NCBI GenBank assembly: GCA_013306675.1
Contig: JABLUY010000015.1
Location: 62,001-126,000, forward strand
DNA length: 64,000 bases
Source of the DNA: Thraustochytrium sp. TN22
Taxonomy: Eukaryota; Sar; Bigyra; Thraustochytrida; Thraustochytriidae
Reading direction: 5' to 3'
Shown here: one piece after another, positions 13,223 to 47,095 of the stretch
Layout of the letters: every line of letters starts with the position of its first letter
How positions within the stretch are numbered: position 1 is the stretch's first letter
Made by a program: the position numbers and the translations under genes
Notes under the pieces: model-generated
What the model was told of the DNA's origin: nothing
What the model saw: the letters and a program-made list of their open reading frames with translations, nothing else
The model's database searches: none

Positions 13223-13903
13223 ATGGCGGACCTCCCGGATCTGAGCTCGCTCGGCACCCCCGCCGGCATGGGCAAGCTGAACGGCTTCATGAGCTCGCGC
13301 TCGTACGTGTCCGGCTACGCGCCGACTCAGGAGGATGTGAAGCTGCTCAAGGCGCTCGAGGGCGTCGAGGTGGACGAGAAGAAGGCCGCCCACGTGGCGC
13401 GCTTCCTCAAGCACATGCAGGCGTTCTCCGAGTCGGAGCGGGCAGCCTGGCCTGCCGCCGGCTCGGCCGCGCCGGCCGCCGCCGCTGCCGCCGCCGACGA
13501 TGAGGGCGACGACGATGACATGGACCTGTTCGGCTCGGACGACGAGGCCGACAAGGCCGCCGAGGCCGCGCTCGCGGAGAAGATGGCCGCTGAGAAGGCC
13601 GCCCGGAAGGCCGGCAAGGGCAAGGGCGAGCGCTCGCTCATCGTTCTCGAGGTCAAGCCCTTCGACGCCGAGACTGACCTGGAGGAGCTCGCCAAGGGCA
13701 TCAAGCAGTTTGAGCACGAGGGCATCCAGAACTGGGGCAAGGAGCACAAGCTGATGCCGGTTGCCTTCGGTATCAAGAAGCTGGCCATCTCCGCCGTCGT
13801 CTACGACGACTACATGGGCGTCGACGGCCTCTCGGACATGATCGAGGAGAAGTACGGCGACCTCATCCAGTCCATTGACGTTCAGGCCATGTCCAAGGTC
13901 TAA
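13223..13903 (+). CDS. Translation elongation factor 1-beta (eEF1B GEF subunit)
   Basis: A 226-residue protein, the usual length. The ATG at 13223 has a strong context (accATGGC). The N-terminal 75 residues form the helical, GST-C-like region. The centre has an Ala-rich linker, an acidic stretch and DLFGSDDE, the typical casein-kinase-2 site. Residues about 137-226 are the guanine-exchange domain, with IVLEVKPFDAETDLEEL, LMPVAFGIKKL and the ending IQSIDVQAMSKV. It recharges eEF1A with GTP during elongation, in the cytosol, in complex with eEF1A and eEF1-gamma. The strong codon bias fits a highly expressed gene. Confidence 0.96.
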   Translation: MADLPDLSSLGTPAGMGKLNGFMSSRSYVSGYAPTQEDVKLLKALEGVEVDEKKAAHVARFLKHMQAFSESERAAWPAAGSAAPAAAAAAADDEGDDDDMDLFGSDDEADKAAEAALAEKMAAEKAARKAGKGKGERSLIVLEVKPFDAETDLEELAKGIKQFEHEGIQNWGKEHKLMPVAFGIKKLAISAVVYDDYMGVDGLSDMIEEKYGDLIQSIDVQAMSKV

Positions 13904-14076: not shown

Positions 14077-14487
14077 TCAGACGCCGCGGATAAATGCCTC
14101 GTCGAAGTCAGCAATCACGTCCGGCTTGACGCTCGCCGGCAGCAGCGTCTTGGCCAGCTTCCAGTTCTCCGTGTCGCCCTGCAGCATGCCCCAGTTCGGA
14201 TACTGGCGCAGCGTGATTTCCTTGGAAACCAAAATCTTCATGTTCATGTGACGCTCGTCCGCCTCGATCACCGAGAGCAATACATCGAGCTGCTCCGCGT
14301 CGCCCTCAAGCACCTGCATCAGCTGGTTCGTGGAGCGGTTGTGAAGCAGAACGCCCGAGACACCGCGCTTCTTGTTGTTTCGCACCGAAACAGACCTGAT
14401 GCTTTCCACCGTCGCCTCTCTCTCGGCCCTCGTCTCGCCGCCGTCCACCAGCGTGGAGCTGTAGATGACCTGCCGCAACACGCTCAT
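14077..14487 (-). CDS. Stand-alone BLUF-domain blue-light sensor (copy 1)
   Basis: A 136-residue protein from the ATG at 14487. An in-frame TTG further upstream is not a credible eukaryotic start. The whole protein is one BLUF domain of the PixD/BlrB size. All four residues of the flavin photocycle are present: Tyr9 (RQVIYSS), Asn38 (RNNKKRGVSG), Gln58 (MQVLEG) and Trp99 (YPNWGM). BLUF domains bind FAD and switch hydrogen bonding under blue light. There is no output domain, only a short C-terminal cap (WKLAKTLLPAS, then an acidic helix), so it should signal by protein contact. It is divergent from the paralogue at 15394, with which it shares residue numbering. Stand-alone BLUF proteins are mostly bacterial, so transfer is possible. 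Confidence 0.9.
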   Translation of the reverse strand: MSVLRQVIYSSTLVDGGETRAEREATVESIRSVSVRNNKKRGVSGVLLHNRSTNQLMQVLEGDAEQLDVLLSVIEADERHMNMKILVSKEITLRQYPNWGMLQGDTENWKLAKTLLPASVKPDVIADFDEAFIRGV

Positions 14488-15393
14488 CCTTGCCGTTCGC
14501 TGCTGAGAGGTGAAGTTCGCCGCTACCTCCAAGAACTACCTACTCGCGCACCTCGCAAGAAGCAAAAGCCCTGATGAGCATACGAGCGCGTGCTCTTGCG
14601 AAGAGTTCTGGGTCTGCAGGACACTGTCACGCGGACAAGGTCCGGTCCATTTTGCTGCCTGCAATTGTCCAGCCGTATGAAGAGACTCTACGACGGCGGG
14701 TCCAGGCTCCGCTCCAGCGAGCTTCGGTCCACCAGTGACTTCGCAAGCCTGTTCCGCAGTCAATTCGTCTCTCTCTCTCTCTCTCTCTGATCCACCGCCA
14801 GGTCTTAGAGTTTCCGCCAATCGCACACAAGCCTGCTTCCATCGCCTGGTCACCTCGCCGGACGCCGGTATGCTTCGCAGGGGGTGTCTCAGCGAGCTCT
14901 GTCAAAAGCCTGCGTGCCCAGGCTTTCGCCTGCCTGCGTGGCCTCCGCCGCGCCGCGTTTTGCGTCCGGCCGCGCCGCGCCGCGCCGTGCCATTCCACCA
15001 GCAGCGGCTAGCAATGGCAACAAGCAGGGTGTGCGCCAATTTTTCGTCTGACCAGTTACCCACCGCCTTCAAGTTTACAGTAACATTACAGTCAAGAGGC
15101 TGCCGAAGCCCCAATGACGCCCTGGAGCACGAAAGTCGCTGAGACTTTCTTTCTTTCATTCACCACAGCGTGCGCACAGGCTTTTCGTAATCTGCTTCCC
15201 ACGAAAAGCCTGGCGGGAATGGCTTGCACTACAGTGCAGTAGCTTTCTAATCGGCATTCTCAGAAAGCCTGCCCCTACCGCACGGCGGAGGTCAGGCGTT
15301 TTACATGCTTGAGAATATGCAACGCCTCTCCAGCCTGGCGCTGAGCTTGCTTGGCGCTGCAGATCCGCTTCGCGGGCTGATCAGCGGAGCAAG
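14488..15393. promoter_or_regulatory. Shared bidirectional promoter region of the BLUF pair
   Basis: 906 bp between the two BLUF starts, with no credible ORF. It carries seven copies of AAGCCTG (either strand) at 14745, 14829, 14906, 14919, 15177, 15206 and 15265. Two of these form a perfect 12-bp inverted repeat (15177-15188 and 15201-15212). A TC run lies at 14767-14788. A regulatory role is inference. Confidence 0.5.
15177..15212. repeat. 12-bp inverted repeat with 12-nt spacer
   Basis: CAGGCTTTTCGT, a 12-nt spacer, then its exact reverse complement. It lies about 180 bp upstream of the second BLUF gene and could be a dimer-binding operator-like site or a hairpin. Confidence 0.75.
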
Positions 15394-15816
15394 ATGCCTG
15401 GGCTGCGGCAGGTGATCTACTCCTCGCACATGCGCGTCACGGCCGACTACGCCGGACGCACTGACCTCCTTCTTGAGCGCATTCGCATGCAGGCTGCCGA
15501 AAAGAACGAGCAGATGGGCATTACTGGTGTTCTCTTTCACAACAAGGACACCAACGACATTCTCCAGGTCATCGAAGGCCACCACGACGATGTGGAGGAC
15601 CTTCTTGACAGACTCAAGGACGATCGTCGCCACACCAAGATGGTGATCCTCGTGGATAAGACGGCGCGCCGTCGTCAGTACCCGAACTGGGGCATGATGC
15701 AGGGCACGAAGAGGGCGTGGAAGTTGGCGAAGACGCTGCTACCCGCAAGCAGCTCATCTCATCTCATTCTCGATTTTGACGCCGCCATCTTCGATCACCC
15801 TCAGGACGTGCACTGA
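15394..15816 (+). CDS. Stand-alone BLUF-domain blue-light sensor (copy 2)
   Basis: A 140-residue paralogue of the BLUF gene at 14077. The ATG at 15394 begins MPGLRQVIYSS. The same key residues sit at the same numbers: Tyr9, Asn38 (EKNEQMGITG), Gln58 (ILQVIEG) and Trp99 (YPNWGM). The C-terminal cap motif WKLAKTLLPAS is identical in the two proteins, whereas helix 1 (residues 12-36) and the tail differ, so the duplication is old but both copies look functional. No output domain is present. The head-to-head layout suggests shared control. They may form mixed oligomers, which is speculation. Confidence 0.9.
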   Translation: MPGLRQVIYSSHMRVTADYAGRTDLLLERIRMQAAEKNEQMGITGVLFHNKDTNDILQVIEGHHDDVEDLLDRLKDDRRHTKMVILVDKTARRRQYPNWGMMQGTKRAWKLAKTLLPASSSSHLILDFDAAIFDHPQDVH

Positions 15817-34150: not shown

Positions 34151-35484
34151 GATCGCTCACGCGCTGCGCCGCGCCAGCTGGCCCAATGCTTCGCTGCCAG
34201 CGCAGCACGGACCGTCAGAGCTCTGCCTGCGCTGGTAGCGCCTGCTCGTGCCGCGCTGCAACGTTGCGAGCTCGCCGTGGCCGCTGCAACTCTCACGTCG
34301 GGCTCCGCTGCAAGCCCTGATCGATCCCGTGTGGCTCGGGAGTCGGGAGCGTAGCCTCTACTGTTGGAGGCAACGGAGCGGGTCTTTCAATCCCCGAACC
34401 GGCTGGCCTCGCGCCGCAACAGTCGAAGGCAGGGTTTGCGGATTCTGCGGTGTAGCAGTGACAGATGACGCGACCGCCGTGCAGCCAGTGGAGCTGAGGT
34501 TGGCCCGAAAGTATGAAAGAGCGATGAAAAGCTTTGGCCTTCTCCACGCAGCAGGTCCACAGCGAGCAGGTAGACTGCAAGACCGACGGATGTGACAGCC
34601 ACGCAAAACGCCTTTGTGCGCGCCGCCCGCCAACGCGTAGGCCTCGAGACTCGAAGGGGTTCGAGCGAGGCAGGCCTTGGAAGCTAGCCCCAGACTAGAT
34701 CGAAGCGCTTGGTCAGGGACGCTTGAGCCTCGCGACGTACGCACCCGGATCGAGTTTGCAGCGACTCGAGAAGAGGCTGTCAAGCGCGCTGCACGCGGAG
34801 ATTGCGAATGCGTCACCGCTCGCTGCGCGGCGCTGCGCGGTGTCGCCCGGCAGGCAGGCAAACCGTCGCTCGCCCCTTAGGAATGACGCAGAGTGAGGCG
34901 AGGGCCGCGAGGCAGCTTGCAGCCCGTGCGAGCCGCGACTCGCGACGGTCGGGCACACCTCGCTCCGACGGTCGGTGTTGCGGAACCCACGCGCAGCGAC
35001 CGCAGCTCGGGGCGCACGCTTCCTCCGTTGCGTCGCACCTACAATCAATCACCCAGGGCCTAGTGGATGCTGGAGGTTGTCACGATGCTGCGCTCCGAGT
35101 GCTGCCGAGTGCTGCGTTGCAGTATGTTCCTGCTTGTGTGCGTTCACGTGCTGCTTTGAGTTGCGCGTTGCTTGCGTGCTGTGCGCGCACACAGAATCTC
35201 GACCAGGGATTGAAGAGAAGCCTAGCTAGCAAGCACTCTTGTTGGCTGGTCTGGAGACAGCCCGTGCCCGTGCTTGCCGTGAACGAGAAGCCTTTCGCCT
35301 CCAAGTCCGGCCAGATCGCCGCCCTCACACGGCGCGCTTTGAGCCGTGGCCGCCGTCCCGGACGCGCGCGGTTCGCGGTGCACGGGGCGACTCGTTCTGC
35401 TGGTTGACTGGTTGGCTGCCAGTCTGGCTGTGGACACAGAGACGGAGGCTCTTGCTGAGTCTCGCCTCGCACAGAATGACGCCC

Positions 35485-35835
35485 CTCGCCTCGCCTCGCC
35501 TCGCCTCGCCTCGCCTCGCCTCGCCTCGCCTCGCCTCGCCTCGCCTCGCCTCGCCTCGCCTCGCCTCGCCTCGCCTCGCCTCGCCTCGCCTCGCCTCGCC
35601 TCGCCTCGCCTCGCCTCGCCTCGCCTCGCCTCGCCTCGCCTCGCCTCGCCTCGCCTCGCCTCGCCTCGCCTCGCCTCGCCTCGCCTCGCCTCGCCTCGCC
35701 TCGCCTCGCCTCGCCTCGCCTCGCCTCGCCTCGCCTCGCCTCGCCTCGCCTCGCCTCGCCTCGCCTCGCCTCGCCTCGCCTCGCCTCGCCTCGCCTCGCC
35801 TCGCCTCGCCTCGCCTCGCCTCGCCTCGCCTCGCC
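35485..35835. repeat. Perfect CCTCG pentanucleotide array, about 70 copies
   Basis: About 350 bp of CCTCG with no interruption visible. It lies between the kinase promoter side and the GT8 cluster. All three frames translate as Leu-Ala-Ser-Pro-Arg on this strand and as Arg-Gly-Glu-Ala-Arg on the other. Confidence 0.98.
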
Positions 35836-37064
35836 ACGCGGCGGCCCTCGCCGGTGCTCCCGAGCACGGACAAGCTAGCGCACGGCGCCGGCCACGCGAT
35901 GCGACCACGAGCGGTGGCGCCGGCACGGGTCGCGAAAGGTCGATCCGCCCGATCCGTCCGAGCGCGCGGCGCGCGCGCGGCGCAGCAGCGTTCGAGCCTC
36001 GGCCACGAATGCGAGCCGCTTGGCGGACTTGGACTCGGACCCTTGGCGCCTGGTGCGTGCCACCGGTCCACGCGCCCGTGCGCGCTCACAGTACGCAGCC
36101 GCACGCCCACCACCAGACGCGCCCAGACGCGCCCAGACGCGCAGACAGTCTGCAGTGGTGATGGTGATGGCTCTGCAAAGACAGCACGGCAGCACGCGCA
36201 GCACAGCGCGGCACACGGCGGAGGCGCGCGCCTTCGCAGGACTTGCTCGCGGCTAAATGGCTCGTATGTGGCCGGATGCCAGGACGAGAGCCCTCAGCGT
36301 GGCGGGTGGTCACGGCGCGCTTTGAAAGGGCCCTTTCACCTGGTGCGGCGAAGCTTGACTCGGCTGCCCACGGCACGCTGAGCGTGCTGCGACTGCAAGA
36401 CGTTTGTTGAAGAGGGCACTGCACGTTCGTAGCCTTGTCGCGCCTTGCCTGACCGAGAGGTGGCCGCCACGGCGCTGGCGGCAGCGTTGCGCGGGACGAC
36501 GCTGCTCTCGCTCAAGGCAAGCCGGCCACGATGCGCCTGCGAGGGGCTCCTTTTTTGCGGCGCTACTGTGTTCCTTGCCGTGCGGGAAAGCTGACTGATG
36601 GGCGCGGGTTTCCGGGGCTGTCTGTGCGACTCACTGTCAGTGAGCTCAATGCCTGCCTGCTTGCTTGCTTGCTTGGCAATGCTTGCTCGCTTGCTTGCTC
36701 TCGCTCGTGCTCTCGCGCGCTTGTGCGTGCTCGTGCGCGTGAAGGTCTCAAGTCGCTTGCGAGCTTGCGCGCAGGAGCTGATGACGGGCTGGGGCGGCAC
36801 AGCGTGCGCGAGTGCTGGCCCTTGTTGCGGCGCCAGGTGGGGGTCGCGCCCGCGGCGATGCCTGCGCGGTCCTGCGGGTTTGCCGGGATGGCGGACCTTG
36901 CGTCGCTCTCGCCCGGGCGCCTCTCCCGCGCCTCTCGCGCACGCGCACGCGCACGCGCACGCCGCCGGCGCGGCGCGGTGCTCGCGCCTGCCTGCGCTGT
37001 GACTCCGGTCTGCATCCCGCGCAAGCTCGTCGCGTGACGCCGGGCGCAGGCCGGCAGAGCCTGG

Positions 37065-37797: not shown

Positions 37798-39537
37798 CTA
37801 GGGCGAAGCTCTAATGTGTCCGATCTCGTCGGCCATGCGTTTGAACTTTTCGAACTCGGCAAAGAGGAAAACCCTGTCCTCCGGTGTATTGTTCCACCTG
37901 AGCGTTTGGATGATGTGCTTGTTGTAGTGGACTATCAAGCCCTGCCGATGAGGAAGCGGCCGCTGTGGCGAAAAGTCCATGCTATTGTATCGAGGGTCGA
38001 GCGATCCGCCTAGCTCATGCAGCACTTTGTTGAAGTATGATTGTTCGCACAGCGAAGAGTCGGGAAACTCCTTGCGCCTATTGACGAGCATCTCGTAGGT
38101 TTCAGTGCTGGGTCTCGCGATGAAGACTCCTCCATTGTAGTACCTTTTAGCCGGATGGTGATGGGGCTCCTCAATGCCACAAAATGCAAAGGCGCGATCG
38201 CACTTGGTCCACATGTCGCTAATGTCCCCCAGGACCAGGGTGTCGAGATCCGTGTAAATAATGACGTCGTAATCTGACATGTTCCACAGCTGCAGCTTGG
38301 AGAACTGGAACTTGTACCGGATATCGCGAGCCCTGGCAGGATCGCAGACCATGGGAGGGACCTGGATCGCAAGGCCGCCCCGCTCGGTGAGCCACTCCCG
38401 AACGTTGGGGTACGCGTCTTCCACATAGACAATAGCGATATTTGACCATGGGATCTTTCCATGTTCGTGCATGCTAAGAAAGTGGCGCTCTACGGCATCC
38501 AGGTCCATCGCATGCATGTCATGAGACCCTTCCAGGCGCGGGGTCAGCAGAGAGACGTATAGGACGCGCTCCGGCACCTCGTGGCGCATCTCGGAGGCGA
38601 GACTCTCCACTCGTCGATCCAATTTGCTCATGGCCGCCTCCAAGACATGGCGGTCTTCCTCGTTCTCGACCTTGGGTAGGTCATGAAGACCGTAGACCAG
38701 GCGAGACACGCGCAACCTGCGTGAGCGCTCTGCATCGAGAGCGTCTGCGCCAAAACGAGAGCCCATGAAGCTCTGGCGATGGAGAGGTACCAGGTCGAAC
38801 ATTTCGCGGCCACTGCAGTCGCGTAGCCATCCCAGTTGTTGAAGCTTGTGTTTTAAGTTGGTGCACATGGCCTCGGAAGGATACATCACAAGGATCTCAC
38901 TGCTCATCACCGTCTTGGGGAGCTGGTGTACAACCGCCGTGCCGCACAGATCCGCCGAGCTGGACTGCAGACACTGCGACCCGAGATCTCTGATATCACC
39001 AAGCGCAATTGTACTGGGTTCCAGCACGATGACCCTGTCGTAGGCTTGTTGGCACCACCCGTAGAACTTTGCATAGTTGAGATTTGGAGCCCGGAAGCAG
39101 GGCCTGGCCTCGGGCATCTGAATGATGGGAAGCCCAAGCTCGCGAATCCAAGCCCTCAGGCTGCTCGGGACCACTCCCGAGCTCATGACGGCCATCTGGG
39201 CCCAGTCCAAGCCGCCATCATCATGCAGGCTCACGATGTGGCGCTTGAACTCTAAGACCTCGTCGATGCCCCAGGTGCGCCCTGCGTCGAGGAAGGTGTA
39301 CCACGCTTCAATATTTCCGCCAAGCCGCGTCGCCGGCACGACTCGGACGGCACTTCCATCGTGAAAGCTCGCGACCGCCTCATCGAAAGGCGATTTCCTC
39401 AGCGCAAAGGTATAACGAGTGTCCACGAAGAGGGCGAGGGCTGCCTGTACCAAGATGATCACCAGCACGGTCGCCAGCGCAAGAGTTCGCGCACTGATTG
39501 GATGCCCGTTGCATGACTGCTGCGCTGGGCACGACAT
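37798..39537 (-). CDS. GT8-type membrane glycosyltransferase, cluster copy 1
   Basis: A 579-residue type II membrane protein with one anchor at about residues 18-37 (LALATVLVIILVQAALALFV). The C-terminal half is a GT8 (glycogenin-like) domain: SKLQLWNMSDYDVIIY, then the metal-binding DLD at 430-432, then YYNGGVFIARPS and, near the end, a LIVHY His. The N-terminal half (about residues 75-300) repeats the layout (AKFYGWCQQAYDRVIVLEPS, then ALGDIRDL) but has EPST where the DxD should be. I read it as a second, inactive GT domain. It probably works in the Golgi lumen; the sugar is unknown. It is more diverged than the two copies to its right, and AT-richer than nearby genes. The stop lies in a CCCTAGCTAGGG palindrome. 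Confidence 0.85.
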   Translation of the reverse strand: MSCPAQQSCNGHPISARTLALATVLVIILVQAALALFVDTRYTFALRKSPFDEAVASFHDGSAVRVVPATRLGGNIEAWYTFLDAGRTWGIDEVLEFKRHIVSLHDDGGLDWAQMAVMSSGVVPSSLRAWIRELGLPIIQMPEARPCFRAPNLNYAKFYGWCQQAYDRVIVLEPSTIALGDIRDLGSQCLQSSSADLCGTAVVHQLPKTVMSSEILVMYPSEAMCTNLKHKLQQLGWLRDCSGREMFDLVPLHRQSFMGSRFGADALDAERSRRLRVSRLVYGLHDLPKVENEEDRHVLEAAMSKLDRRVESLASEMRHEVPERVLYVSLLTPRLEGSHDMHAMDLDAVERHFLSMHEHGKIPWSNIAIVYVEDAYPNVREWLTERGGLAIQVPPMVCDPARARDIRYKFQFSKLQLWNMSDYDVIIYTDLDTLVLGDISDMWTKCDRAFAFCGIEEPHHHPAKRYYNGGVFIARPSTETYEMLVNRRKEFPDSSLCEQSYFNKVLHELGGSLDPRYNSMDFSPQRPLPHRQGLIVHYNKHIIQTLRWNNTPEDRVFLFAEFEKFKRMADEIGHIRASP

Positions 39538-40440: not shown

Positions 40441-42294
40441 ATGCGGAGCCCCTCGCAGGAGCAAAAGGGTGCGGCAAAATTCGTCAAGGAAAAGCCTGCC
40501 GATGGGCACCCAGTCCAGCTTCGCTCACGAGCGAATACATTGGTCGCGTTCGCGCTGTCGTTGGTCTTGGTCGCGAGTCTCGCCATGAGCCTTAACTTCC
40601 ACCAGTTGTTGACTGTCAGCGGCGAAAACGGCGAAAACGTCGACGCGACACAGCCAATGGATTTCTCGAAGCCAACACGGCGTGGCGGAAAGCTCGAGAT
40701 GTGGTACACCTTCCTCGACGCGGGGCGCACCTGGGGCGCCAACGAGGAGCTGGAGTTCAAGCGCCACATCGTGAGCTTGCACGATGTTGGTGGCCTGGCC
40801 TGGACCGAGCTCGGCGTCATGAGCTCGGGAGACGCCCCGGAGGGCCTGCTCGCTTGGATTGGCGAGCTTGGGCTTCCCATCATCCAGGTGCCTGAGTCTC
40901 GTCCCTGCGCTGCGTCCCGAGACGTCAACTTCGCCAAGTTCTACGGATGGTGCGAAGAGGCGTATGACAGGGTCATCGTGCTGGAACCCAGCACCCTGGC
41001 TTTGGGCGATCTCAGGGACATGACGGCACAGTGCTTGAAGCCCAGCTCGGTGGACCTGTGCGGTGCCGAGACCGTGCACCTGCTCCCAAAGTTGTTCATG
41101 AGCAACGAGGTGATTGTGATGTCGCCATCGGAGTCCATGTGCAGTGCCTTCAAAGAACAGCTTTCGAACATGTCAGCGCATGCCGAACTACGTTGCGATG
41201 GCAGGGAAATGATTGACCTGGTTCCTCTCCGGCGTCAGAGCTTCATGGACTCTCGTATCGGAGCGGACGCGCATGACACGAAGCGCTCGCGGAGGATGAG
41301 CGAGGCCCGCCTTGCTTATGGTCTTTATGACCTAGAAACGGTCGAGAACCAGGAAGACCGCCACGTTCTGGAGGCAGCCATTCTCAAGATGGACCGGCGA
41401 ACGGAGAGTCTCGCCTCTGAGATGCGGCACGAGCTCCCTAAACGTGTGTTGTATGCCTCGCTGCTGACGCCGAGTCCAGACAGCCCCGATGACATGCACT
41501 CAATGGATCTCGATGTGATTGAGCGCCACTTTCTGAGTATGCACGAGTACGGGAAGATCCCATGGTCCCAGATTGCCATTGTCTACGTCGAAGACGCGCA
41601 CCCACATATTCGCAAGTGGCTCACTGACCGTGGAGGGCTCACGATCCAGGTGGAACCCATGTTCTGCGACGTATCTAAAGCGCGCAACAAGCGGTACCGG
41701 TATCAGTACACCAAGCTGCAGTTGTGGAACATGCTGGAGTACGACACAATTGTCTACACGGATCTCGACACTCTGATTCTCGGAGATATTAGCGACATGT
41801 GGGCCAGGTGCGACCGCGCGCTCGACTTCTGCGCCATCGACGAGCCTCTCTACCTCCCGCGCAGGTACTTTAACGGTGGTGTCTTCATCGCCCGGCCGAG
41901 CGCTGAGACCTACAGGCTGCTCGTCGACAGGCGCAAGGAGCTCGGCGATTTCTTCTTGTGCGAGCAGGACTACTTCAACAAATTCTTCACGCCGCAAGGT
42001 ACGGGGTCGCTCGAAGGCCGGTACAACAGCATGGACTTTGCGCCGCAGCGACCATTGCCTCATCGGGAGGCCTTGATCGTTCACTACAGCCAAGGCATCA
42101 TCGATAATCTTCAAATCCAAAACACCGCGGAGGACAGGGACTTCCTTCATAAGGTTTTCGACAAGTTCAAGCGCATGGCTGATGAGATTGGTCACATCAC
42201 GATCCTTCCGTCCGAGCCAGCTCCTAAGTCCTCGACGACTTCTGCCTCCGAACCGTCGAGTGACGGTGGGCGCCGCGCCTTGAGAAGCATGTAA
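40441..42294 (+). CDS. GT8-type membrane glycosyltransferase, cluster copy 2
   Basis: A 617-residue protein from the ATG at 40441 (MRSPSQEQ). Anchor at about residues 34-56 (TLVAFALSLVLVASLAMSL). The degenerate N-terminal GT-like half starts near residue 81 (RRGGKLEMWYTFLDAGRTW), with VIVLEPS where the DxD should be. The active-looking GT8 half has DLD at 441-443, YFNGGVFIARPS and ALIVHYS. By eye it differs from copy 3 at about 25 of some 535 luminal residues, but the N-terminal anchors of the two are unrelated. It ends in a Ser-rich tail (KSSTTSASEPSS...) that copy 3 lacks. Confidence 0.85.
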   Translation: MRSPSQEQKGAAKFVKEKPADGHPVQLRSRANTLVAFALSLVLVASLAMSLNFHQLLTVSGENGENVDATQPMDFSKPTRRGGKLEMWYTFLDAGRTWGANEELEFKRHIVSLHDVGGLAWTELGVMSSGDAPEGLLAWIGELGLPIIQVPESRPCAASRDVNFAKFYGWCEEAYDRVIVLEPSTLALGDLRDMTAQCLKPSSVDLCGAETVHLLPKLFMSNEVIVMSPSESMCSAFKEQLSNMSAHAELRCDGREMIDLVPLRRQSFMDSRIGADAHDTKRSRRMSEARLAYGLYDLETVENQEDRHVLEAAILKMDRRTESLASEMRHELPKRVLYASLLTPSPDSPDDMHSMDLDVIERHFLSMHEYGKIPWSQIAIVYVEDAHPHIRKWLTDRGGLTIQVEPMFCDVSKARNKRYRYQYTKLQLWNMLEYDTIVYTDLDTLILGDISDMWARCDRALDFCAIDEPLYLPRRYFNGGVFIARPSAETYRLLVDRRKELGDFFLCEQDYFNKFFTPQGTGSLEGRYNSMDFAPQRPLPHREALIVHYSQGIIDNLQIQNTAEDRDFLHKVFDKFKRMADEIGHITILPSEPAPKSSTTSASEPSSDGGRRALRSM

Positions 42295-45262: not shown

Positions 45263-47095
45263 ATGCAGAGCCCAGCCCAGCACCAGGGCGTGTCGCATCG
45301 CAATGTGCGCCCGTGCAACCTTCGCGGACGAGGTCAGACTTTCCTGATCGCCGTGCTGATGTCAGTCTTAGCGCTTAGTCTGCTCACGACTCTCCGAGTC
45401 GACGTAGCTTTCCGTGCTTCCCCTTTTGACTCTCCGGGCGCTCAAATCGCTCCCGCAAACAACACCGCTCAAATCGCTCCCGCAAACAACACCGCTCAAA
45501 TCGCTCAAATATCAACACCCGCAAGCAACACCACCAAGCCCCAACGGCGTGGCGGGAAGCTCGAGACGTGGTACACCTTCCTCGACGCGGGGCGCACCTG
45601 GGGCGCCAACGAGCAGCTGGAGTTCAAGCGCCACATCGTGAGCTTGCACGATGTTGGTGGCCTGGCCTGGACCCAGCTCGGCGTCATGAGCTCGGGAGAC
45701 GCCCCGGAGGACCTACTCGCTTGGATTCGAGAGCTTGGGCTTCCCATCACCCAGGTGCCTGAGTCTCGTCCCTGCGCTGCGTCTCGAGACGTCAACTTCG
45801 CCAAGTTCTACGGATGGTGCGAAGAGGCGTATGACAGGGTCATCGTGCTGGAACCCAGCACCCTGGCTTTGGGCGATCTCAGGGACATGACGTCACAGTG
45901 CTTGAAGCCCAGCTCGGTGGACCTGTGCGGTGCCGAGACAGTGCACCTGCTCCCAAAGTTGTTCATGAGCAACGAGGTGATTGTGATGTCGCCATCGGAG
46001 TCCATGTGCAGTGCCTTCAAGGAACAGCTTTCGACCATGGCAGTGCATGCCGAACTACGTTGCGATGGCAGGGAAATGATTGACCTGGTTCCTCTCCGGC
46101 GTCAGAGCTTCATGGACTCTCGTATCGGAGCGGACGCGCATGACACGAAGCGCTCGCGGAGGATGAGCGAGGCCCGCCTTGCTTATGGTCTTCATGACCT
46201 AGAAACGGTCGAGAACCAGGAAGACCGCCACGTTCTGGAGGCGGCCATTCTCAAGATGGACCGGCGAACGGAGAGTTTCACCTCTGAGATGCGGCACGAG
46301 CTCCCTAAACGTGTGTTGTATGCCTCGCTACTGACGCCGAGTCCAGACGGCCCCGATGACATGCACTCGATGAAGTTCGATTTGATCGAGCGCCACTTTC
46401 TGAGTATGCACGAGTACGGGAAGATCCCGTGGTCCCAGATTGCCATTGTCTACGTCGAAGACGCGCACCCACATATTCGCAAGTGGCTCACTGACCGTGG
46501 AGGGCTCACGATCCAGGTGGAACCCATGTTCTGCGACGTATCTAAAGCGCGCAACAAGCGGTACCGGTATCAGTACACCAAGCTGCAGTTGTGGAACATG
46601 CTGGAGTACGACACAATTGTCTACACGGATCTCGACACTCTGATTCTCGGAGATATTAGCGACATGTGGGCCAGGTGCGACCGCGCGCTCGACTTCTGCG
46701 CCATCGACGAGCCTCTCTACCTCCCGCGCAGGTACTTTAACGGTGGTGTCTTCATCGCCCGGCCGAGCGCTGAGACCTACAGGCTGCTCGTCGACAGGCG
46801 CAAGGAGCTCGGCGATTTCTTCTTGTGCGAGCAGGACTACTTCAACAAATTCTTCACGCCGCAAGGTACGGGGTCGCTCGAAGGCCGGTACAACAGCATG
46901 GCCTTTGCGCCGCAGCGACCATTGCCTCACCGGGAGGCCTTGATCGTTCACTACAGCCCAGGCATGATCGATAAACTTCAAGCCAAAAACACCGCGGAGG
47001 ACAGGGACTTCCTTCATAAGGAGTTCGACAAGTTCAAGCGCATGGCTGATGAGATTGGTCACATCACGATCCTTCCGTCCGAGCCTGCTCCTTAA
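45263..47095 (+). CDS. GT8-type membrane glycosyltransferase, cluster copy 3
   Basis: A 610-residue protein from the ATG at 45263 (MQSPAQHQG); the track-like upstream TTG is not a start. Anchor at about residues 30-50 (FLIAVLMSVLALSLLTTL). The stem holds a duplicated AQIAPANNT unit with NxT glycosylation sites, which copy 2 lacks. From RRGGKLETWYTF on it is nearly identical to copy 2, with the inactive N-terminal domain (VIVLEPST) and the active-looking GT8 domain (DLD at 456-458, YFNGGVFIARPS, ALIVHYS). It stops at SEPAP. The DNA matching the last 22 codons of copy 2 follows but is out of frame. Both copies keep the catalytic motifs, so both may work. Confidence 0.85.
   Translation: MQSPAQHQGVSHRNVRPCNLRGRGQTFLIAVLMSVLALSLLTTLRVDVAFRASPFDSPGAQIAPANNTAQIAPANNTAQIAQISTPASNTTKPQRRGGKLETWYTFLDAGRTWGANEQLEFKRHIVSLHDVGGLAWTQLGVMSSGDAPEDLLAWIRELGLPITQVPESRPCAASRDVNFAKFYGWCEEAYDRVIVLEPSTLALGDLRDMTSQCLKPSSVDLCGAETVHLLPKLFMSNEVIVMSPSESMCSAFKEQLSTMAVHAELRCDGREMIDLVPLRRQSFMDSRIGADAHDTKRSRRMSEARLAYGLHDLETVENQEDRHVLEAAILKMDRRTESFTSEMRHELPKRVLYASLLTPSPDGPDDMHSMKFDLIERHFLSMHEYGKIPWSQIAIVYVEDAHPHIRKWLTDRGGLTIQVEPMFCDVSKARNKRYRYQYTKLQLWNMLEYDTIVYTDLDTLILGDISDMWARCDRALDFCAIDEPLYLPRRYFNGGVFIARPSAETYRLLVDRRKELGDFFLCEQDYFNKFFTPQGTGSLEGRYNSMAFAPQRPLPHREALIVHYSPGMIDKLQAKNTAEDRDFLHKEFDKFKRMADEIGHITILPSEPAP
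45443..45500 (+). repeat. 27-bp coding repeat, 2 copies
   Basis: CTCAAATCGCTCCCGCAAAC followed by AACACCG, twice in tandem, encoding AQIAPANNT in the stem of GT8 copy 3. Confidence 0.85.

Follow-up and report, generated by a model that had tools for sequence, protein, structure and literature searches.

A divergent pair of PixD-like short BLUF proteins and four putatively blind paralogs in a genome most likely of a thraustochytrid

Two small open reading frames lie head to head in the window (the whole stretch of 64,000 nucleotides of DNA that was analyzed), and a sequence-only reading had taken them for stand-alone BLUF photoreceptors. The question raised by this locus is whether the two proteins are working blue-light receptors and, if so, how proteins consisting of a single BLUF domain would pass on a light signal.

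The divergent BLUF pair and its host

The BLUF-A gene is located at positions 14077-14487 on the minus strand, and it encodes a protein of 136 amino acid residues from the first ATG; BLUF-B is located at positions 15394-15816 on the plus strand and encodes 140 amino acid residues. Both ORF ends agreed with those given by the sequence-only reading, and in the Pfam search that it had proposed, both proteins scored far above the BLUF (PF04940) cut-off of 25 bits (BLUF-A, 73.9 bits; BLUF-B, 73.8 bits; E 1.2e-20 each). BLUF was the only profile over its cut-off in the scan of the two proteins, Acylphosphatase being matched by BLUF-B below the cut-off. The two start codons are separated by 906 bases (14488-15393), presumed to be a divergent promoter region, with a GC content of 0.59 as against 0.65 for the window (0.647); none of the four ORFs from this gap reached a Pfam cut-off (best, DUF753, E 0.029). 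Upstream of the ATG, the frame stays open for 16 codons in BLUF-A and 27 codons in BLUF-B, with no further ATG inside. The open frame of BLUF-B has 167 codons in all, and one row of the genome search (C66:77364-77783) gave 232. No second domain was seen in these upstream open frames or in the Pfam scan of the gap ORFs, and a spliced upstream exon is possible for either gene.

BLUF-A and BLUF-B were aligned without gaps, with 61 of 133 residues identical (46%, E 6e-42). The alignment bore out the further claims that Tyr9, Asn38, Gln58 and Trp99, known from the PixD-type photocycle, carry identical numbers in both proteins and that both contain the WKLAKTLLPAS sequence; Met101 is likewise equally numbered, and Ser11, Asp77, Arg79, His80 and Arg94 are also kept in both. 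The divergence between the two is of the purifying type (dN 0.54 versus dS 2.14 by our own counting script, with dS near saturation). As in other short (PixD-type) BLUF proteins, the BLUF core is followed by helices only, and the description of the pair as two PixD-sized, divergently placed, paralogous BLUF proteins without an output domain was upheld. The AlphaFold2 model of BLUF-B (mean pLDDT 86.3) has the topology beta1-alpha1-beta2-beta3-alpha2-beta4-beta5, followed by helices at residues 106-115 and 122-134. The C-terminal cap, a segment around GTKRAWKLAKTLLPAS at 15697-15756 (plus strand), corresponds to helix 106-115 of the model, and its motif is common to BLUF-A (WKLAKTLLP) and to three of the paralogs described below. 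When the model was used in Foldseek, PixD (Slr1694) was the best match (E 4e-9), and the nearest structures were PixD and OaPAC. Based on the residue sets and the modeled fold, both proteins are very likely to be photoactive, with flavin binding and photochemistry predicted for each, and they can be regarded as genuine short blue-light receptors of the PixD kind that probably function.

The gene next to BLUF-A (13223-13903) encodes an elongation factor 1-beta-like protein (EF1_GNE), and the genome (37.9 Mb, 453 contigs) encodes a radial-spoke protein and an N-myristoyltransferase, all of which agree with the eukaryotic host proposed earlier. This host is probably a marine, single-celled, fungus-like eukaryote and, judged by its genes, most likely a thraustochytrid, since a PfaA-type PUFA synthase and channelrhodopsin-like frames fit this identity. 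The synthase frame (3,044 aa, minus strand, C124:26703-41142 region; 2,539.7 bits, cut-off 1,010) lies beside a divergent frame of 2,083 aa matching the same family; PfaA-type PUFA synthases occur in marine bacteria too. Microbial rhodopsin matches were found at four places (L026, L027, L028 and L029; contigs C443, C404 and C2). At least two of these frames, of about 730 aa, have channelrhodopsins as their nearest PDB chains (E 2.9e-12 and 4.8e-12), and these two carry a Cys/His-rich C-terminal tail, which we take to resemble a MYND finger. The sequence-only reading had suggested that the BLUF pair may serve zoospore phototaxis; in sections of a review, the likely phototaxis of thraustochytrids is ascribed to channelrhodopsins (PMC8818676). 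Two photolyase/cryptochrome FAD-binding matches (C8:25341-25949 and C402:9065-9556) were also observed, and the organism thus possesses further flavin-based photoreceptors or repair enzymes. Elsewhere in the window, three closely similar ORFs of about 579-617 aa (37798-39537, minus; 40441-42294, plus; 45263-47095, plus) form a local gene family and look, from the impression given by their sequences, like glycosyltransferase-type proteins, and an ORF of more than 20 tandem SPRLA copies (35476-36381, plus) is more likely a simple repeat than a gene.

Paralogs on a second contig and the family tree

The genome was searched with BLUF-B, P3, P4 and BLUF-A, and six family members were pooled: BLUF-A and BLUF-B (contig C66) and the paralogs P1-P4, clustered in a 4,371-base stretch of contig C110. 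Beyond the six, no family match below E 0.1 was found among the best candidates scored (next rows, E 0.397 and 3.45), and six is a lower bound, given that the searches score the best candidates only. The pair had been put forward as a light-sensing module; it is real, but it is not the whole system, with four degenerate paralogs on another contig.

P1-P3 (205-216 aa) carry a variable N-terminal stretch of 50-60 residues ahead of the BLUF fold and are 43-54% identical to one another (54 and 43 to P3), and P4 has 152 aa from its MGSGSS start. P4 passes the Pfam BLUF cut-off of 25 bits (50.4), whereas P1 (17.9) and P3 (13.2) fall below it and P2 gave no match. The photocycle residue set is complete in BLUF-A and BLUF-B only. 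Among P1-P3, Tyr is replaced by Cys, Asn by Gly, Gln by Leu or Ile, His80 by Tyr or Asp, and Trp by Glu or Arg; their Met column is unsure, the segment being one residue shorter and P3 having an adjacent Met. Tyr and Asn are kept in P4, with Gln replaced by Ser, Trp by Phe and Met by Gln. To our knowledge, Tyr and Gln are needed in all BLUF photochemistry, and P1-P4 are for this reason expected to be blind to light, although P4 might still bind flavin.

The model of P3 has a BLUF fold (mean pLDDT 74.2). Rows 1-39 of the Foldseek search with this model were BLUF proteins (best E 3.3e-5), and its VIA-align Z of 9.6 was level with ferredoxin-like folds from outside the BLUF proteins, Prp3 (9.2) among them. 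The frames of P1-P4 are open, with GC3 values of 0.675-0.796 compared with 0.744-0.878 for four long window ORFs and an overall GC of 0.59 in two gaps. In all six pairs computed, dN was lower than dS (for example, 0.41 versus 1.17 for P1/P3; same script, dS near saturation). Selection on P1-P3 is indicated by conserved blocks at both ends (MGA[AS]QG and NGFAYxNYFVPEExRY), and the Glu61-Gly62 turn is kept in these three along with the cap motif. The blind paralogs would mean that the BLUF fold can persist as a scaffold after the loss of photocycle residues.

The cap motif (WKxxKx[LM]LP) was found in five of the six family members, being absent from P4, and in none of the 80 bacterial relatives compared (the best 80 of 114 confirmed); within this sample, it is unique to the family. 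The bacterial relatives were found by patterns with Gln or Trp/Met, and the sample is uninformative on degenerate bacterial BLUF proteins. Its residue counts (Tyr in 78 of 78 ungapped rows; Asn, Gln, Trp and Met in 80 of 80) are inflated by search patterns that contain Gln or Trp/Met.

A maximum-likelihood tree was built from 144 columns and 86 rows (the six and the 80 bacterial BLUF proteins, with no other eukaryotic BLUF; bootstraps unsettled), and the six were placed on one side of a branch with the bacterial sequences on the other (support 98/99). The branches of P4 (2.12) and of the P1-P3 stem (2.56) are long, and long-branch attraction is possible. BLUF-A and BLUF-B were not sisters in the best tree, and the AU test did not reject a tree joining them (p 0.486); the window pair may stem from a recent duplication, or from two old genes that each gave rise to blind copies. 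Among the 80 bacterial rows, none was placed beside the six. The best bacterial relative, a Verrucomicrobia ORF (L032, 535 aa, 38% identity in the match) of BLUF-response-regulator size, has the same 12-residue spacing between Gly45 and Gln58 as BLUF-A and BLUF-B, compared with the usual 10 (72 of the 80 bacterial rows). A bacterial donor is possible. There was no support for an origin in giant viruses, as 0 of the pattern stretches from four scans of viral contigs (3, 26, 20 and 111) were confirmed; no close relatives were found on plasmids in the plasmid scan, and in the phage scan one ycgF-like gene was matched twice, weakly (E 2e-3).

Proposed signaling and alternative explanations

The photochemistry of BLUF domains has been studied well, whereas signal output of short BLUF proteins is known in few cases, and eukaryotic short BLUF proteins are hardly known. 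In the model proposed here, BLUF-A and BLUF-B are cytosolic sensors that signal by contact with membrane-held blind paralogs; as a whole it is the likeliest of the explanations considered, if short of probable, and it is advanced tentatively. Both proteins would bind FAD in the cytosol, as their residue sets and fold suggest. Blue light rearranges Tyr-Gln-flavin hydrogen bonds in BLUF domains, and this known chemistry would follow in the pair. Next, movement would pass to strand beta5 and to the two helices of the C-terminal cap, as described for PixD in sections of PMC5899715. Because an output domain is absent from BLUF-A and BLUF-B, output would run through protein contact, with the cap as the contact surface. 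The membrane-held blind paralogs, offering the same cap, would act as fixed partners, and their assembly with BLUF-A and BLUF-B would be light-dependent. Signaling by protein contact, as suggested by the sequence-only reading, is natural for short BLUF proteins and would fit the retention of the cap in three blind paralogs; the mixed oligomers suggested alongside it gain nothing from the divergent layout, which alone is uninformative.

P1-P4, at the chosen starts (MG motif), fit the loose sequence pattern for N-myristoylation, and BLUF-A and BLUF-B do not fit it. P1 and P3 have no in-frame ATG earlier than the MG start. In P2, MGAAQG is immediately preceded by another ATG, and in P4 an in-frame ATG lies 19 codons upstream; translated from these starts, neither protein would be myristoylated. 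The case for N-myristoylation thus appears fair for P1 and P3 and weaker for P2 and P4, and there are hints that P1-P4 are membrane-attached. We infer the lipid anchor, like the contact between BLUF-A/BLUF-B and the P proteins, from sequence features. That the blind paralogs are partners of BLUF-A and BLUF-B, as suggested by their common descent, the cap that they share and the likely tether, is possible but doubtful: the cap is missing from P4, and P1-P4 are located on another contig with homology as the sole link to the pair. A complete two-tier BLUF system, in which blue light controls the assembly of mixed complexes between soluble sensors and N-myristoylated blind membrane receptors, is considered somewhat unlikely. 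If true, it would provide a natural blue-light membrane-recruitment tool built from eukaryotic proteins about 140 to 216 residues long. The new element here is the presence of blind, apparently lipidated sister genes beside two seeing BLUF proteins; no description of sensor/pseudo-sensor pairing by duplication was found for BLUF proteins in the literature searched. With two seeing and four blind paralogs and a common cap, binding between seeing and blind members and the effect of light on it become testable.

BLUF-A and BLUF-B could also be ordinary short PixD-like receptors that act alone or together, as homo- or hetero-oligomers, on some other partner, with P1-P4 being neofunctionalized ferredoxin-like scaffolds of unrelated function. 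This explanation is plausible, if short of probable, and agrees with the intact residues in BLUF-A and BLUF-B only and with the different contig of P1-P4. The short form makes up the majority of bacterial BLUF proteins according to excerpts of PMC4844311 (58 of the 80 relatives found here encode at most 175 aa), and PixD offers a precedent in signaling through an oligomer change with PixE, as described in sections of PMC5899715, where Met93 and Trp in PixD and AppA are also treated. The retention by three blind paralogs of a cap found in none of the 80 bacterial BLUF proteins argues against it.

Contact with membrane-held paralogs is also weighed against a ciliary role, in which the pair or the blind paralogs would belong to a MOT7/TEX47 system tuning the flagellar beat in blue light. 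Chlamydomonas MOT7 is a BLUF protein in the inner-dynein-f tether that regulates IDAf in blue light, according to excerpts of PMC10266980; the radial-spoke protein makes motile flagella likely, and the P3 fold was matched to bovine TEX47 (9fqr_H0, rank 40, E 2.2e-3). However, a separate protein (L112; C75:37892-38317, 235 aa from the ATG used) passes the Pfam TEX47 cut-off of 25 bits (28.7-29 bits) and matches MOT7 (8glv_D9, E 3.8e-5, named 'Inner-arm dynein f/I1 light chain' in the PDB) and TEX47 (9fqr_H0, E 0.14). For BLUF-A, BLUF-B and P1-P4, no match to Pfam TEX47 (PF24787) was obtained at E≤10, a range in which HMMER filters drop most matches above 0.1. Moreover, the C-terminal part of MOT7 is missing in BLUF-A and BLUF-B, and MOT7, by our reading of the printed alignment, carries His in place of Gln and Ser in place of Asn. 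The MOT7 chain was absent among the listed PDB matches of BLUF-A, BLUF-B, P4 and profiles A1 and A2, and was matched by profile A4 (E 2.7e-4); the VIA-align rows listed for BLUF-B and P3 contained no TEX47/MOT7 chain, which has no bearing either way. As far as the profiles tell, BLUF-A and BLUF-B would represent a line distinct from MOT7/TEX47, and the ciliary role is improbable.

A split photoactivated adenylyl cyclase, with BLUF-A and BLUF-B acting in trans on a cyclase, is likewise regarded as a poor prospect, despite photoactivated cyclases being the best PDB sequence matches of BLUF-A (bPAC, 2.2e-10). Guanylate_cyc matches were observed at 21 places on 14 contigs, some repeated in one long frame (best, a 1,289 aa frame on C417). 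BLUF matches are confined to C66 and C110, contigs without cyclase places; no fusion of BLUF with a class III cyclase domain was found, and BLUF and Guanylate_cyc matches never share a contig in this genome. The tree places the PAC-like bacterial rows in a separate group that does not contain the six. Finally, that BLUF-A and BLUF-B are light-insensitive flavoproteins or decaying genes is highly improbable, as about half of the sequence has diverged yet every photocycle residue is kept, and dN is well below dS.

Comparison with known BLUF systems

The statement that eukaryotic BLUF domains are best known inside large photoactivated cyclases needs correction, as non-cyclase cases (Blf1, MOT7 and TEX47) are already in print. 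MOT7 (238 aa, also named DYBLUP) and TEX47 (252 aa) resemble BLUF-A and BLUF-B in having a eukaryotic BLUF fold without a catalytic output domain, and differ in a C-terminal extension that the pair lacks. TEX47 is described as a BLUF-fold protein of mammalian sperm in parts of PMC11779644, and a further paper treats Chlamydomonas MOT7 (PMC8591175, in the portion available). At the columns of Tyr, Asn, Gln, Trp and Met, the TEX47/MOT7-like protein on C75 shows Val, a gap, Leu, Phe and Val, respectively; it too looks blind, is probably a subunit of the ciliary tether in a stramenopile, and would point likewise to a BLUF fold kept as a scaffold.

Blf1 (um00188) of Ustilago maydis is a eukaryotic BLUF-domain protein from outside the euglenoids, reported in excerpts of PMC4831468 solely from U. 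maydis and close relatives; this fungal protein is likened to BLUF-A and BLUF-B by its description rather than by sequence comparison. Among the literature matches listed, no paper combined 'BLUF' with thraustochytrid terms, and the word is absent from the portion consulted of the A. limacinum zoospore proteome paper (PMC12221091). Photoactivated cyclases (OaPAC and bPAC; Euglena PAC lies outside the comparison) have the BLUF domain in common with BLUF-A and BLUF-B and differ from them in carrying a cyclase domain. The cyanobacterial short BLUF proteins PixD (Slr1694) and TePixD (Tll0078) are about 25% identical to BLUF-A and BLUF-B, which are set apart from PixD by their family-specific cap motif, their eukaryotic host and their blind paralogs.
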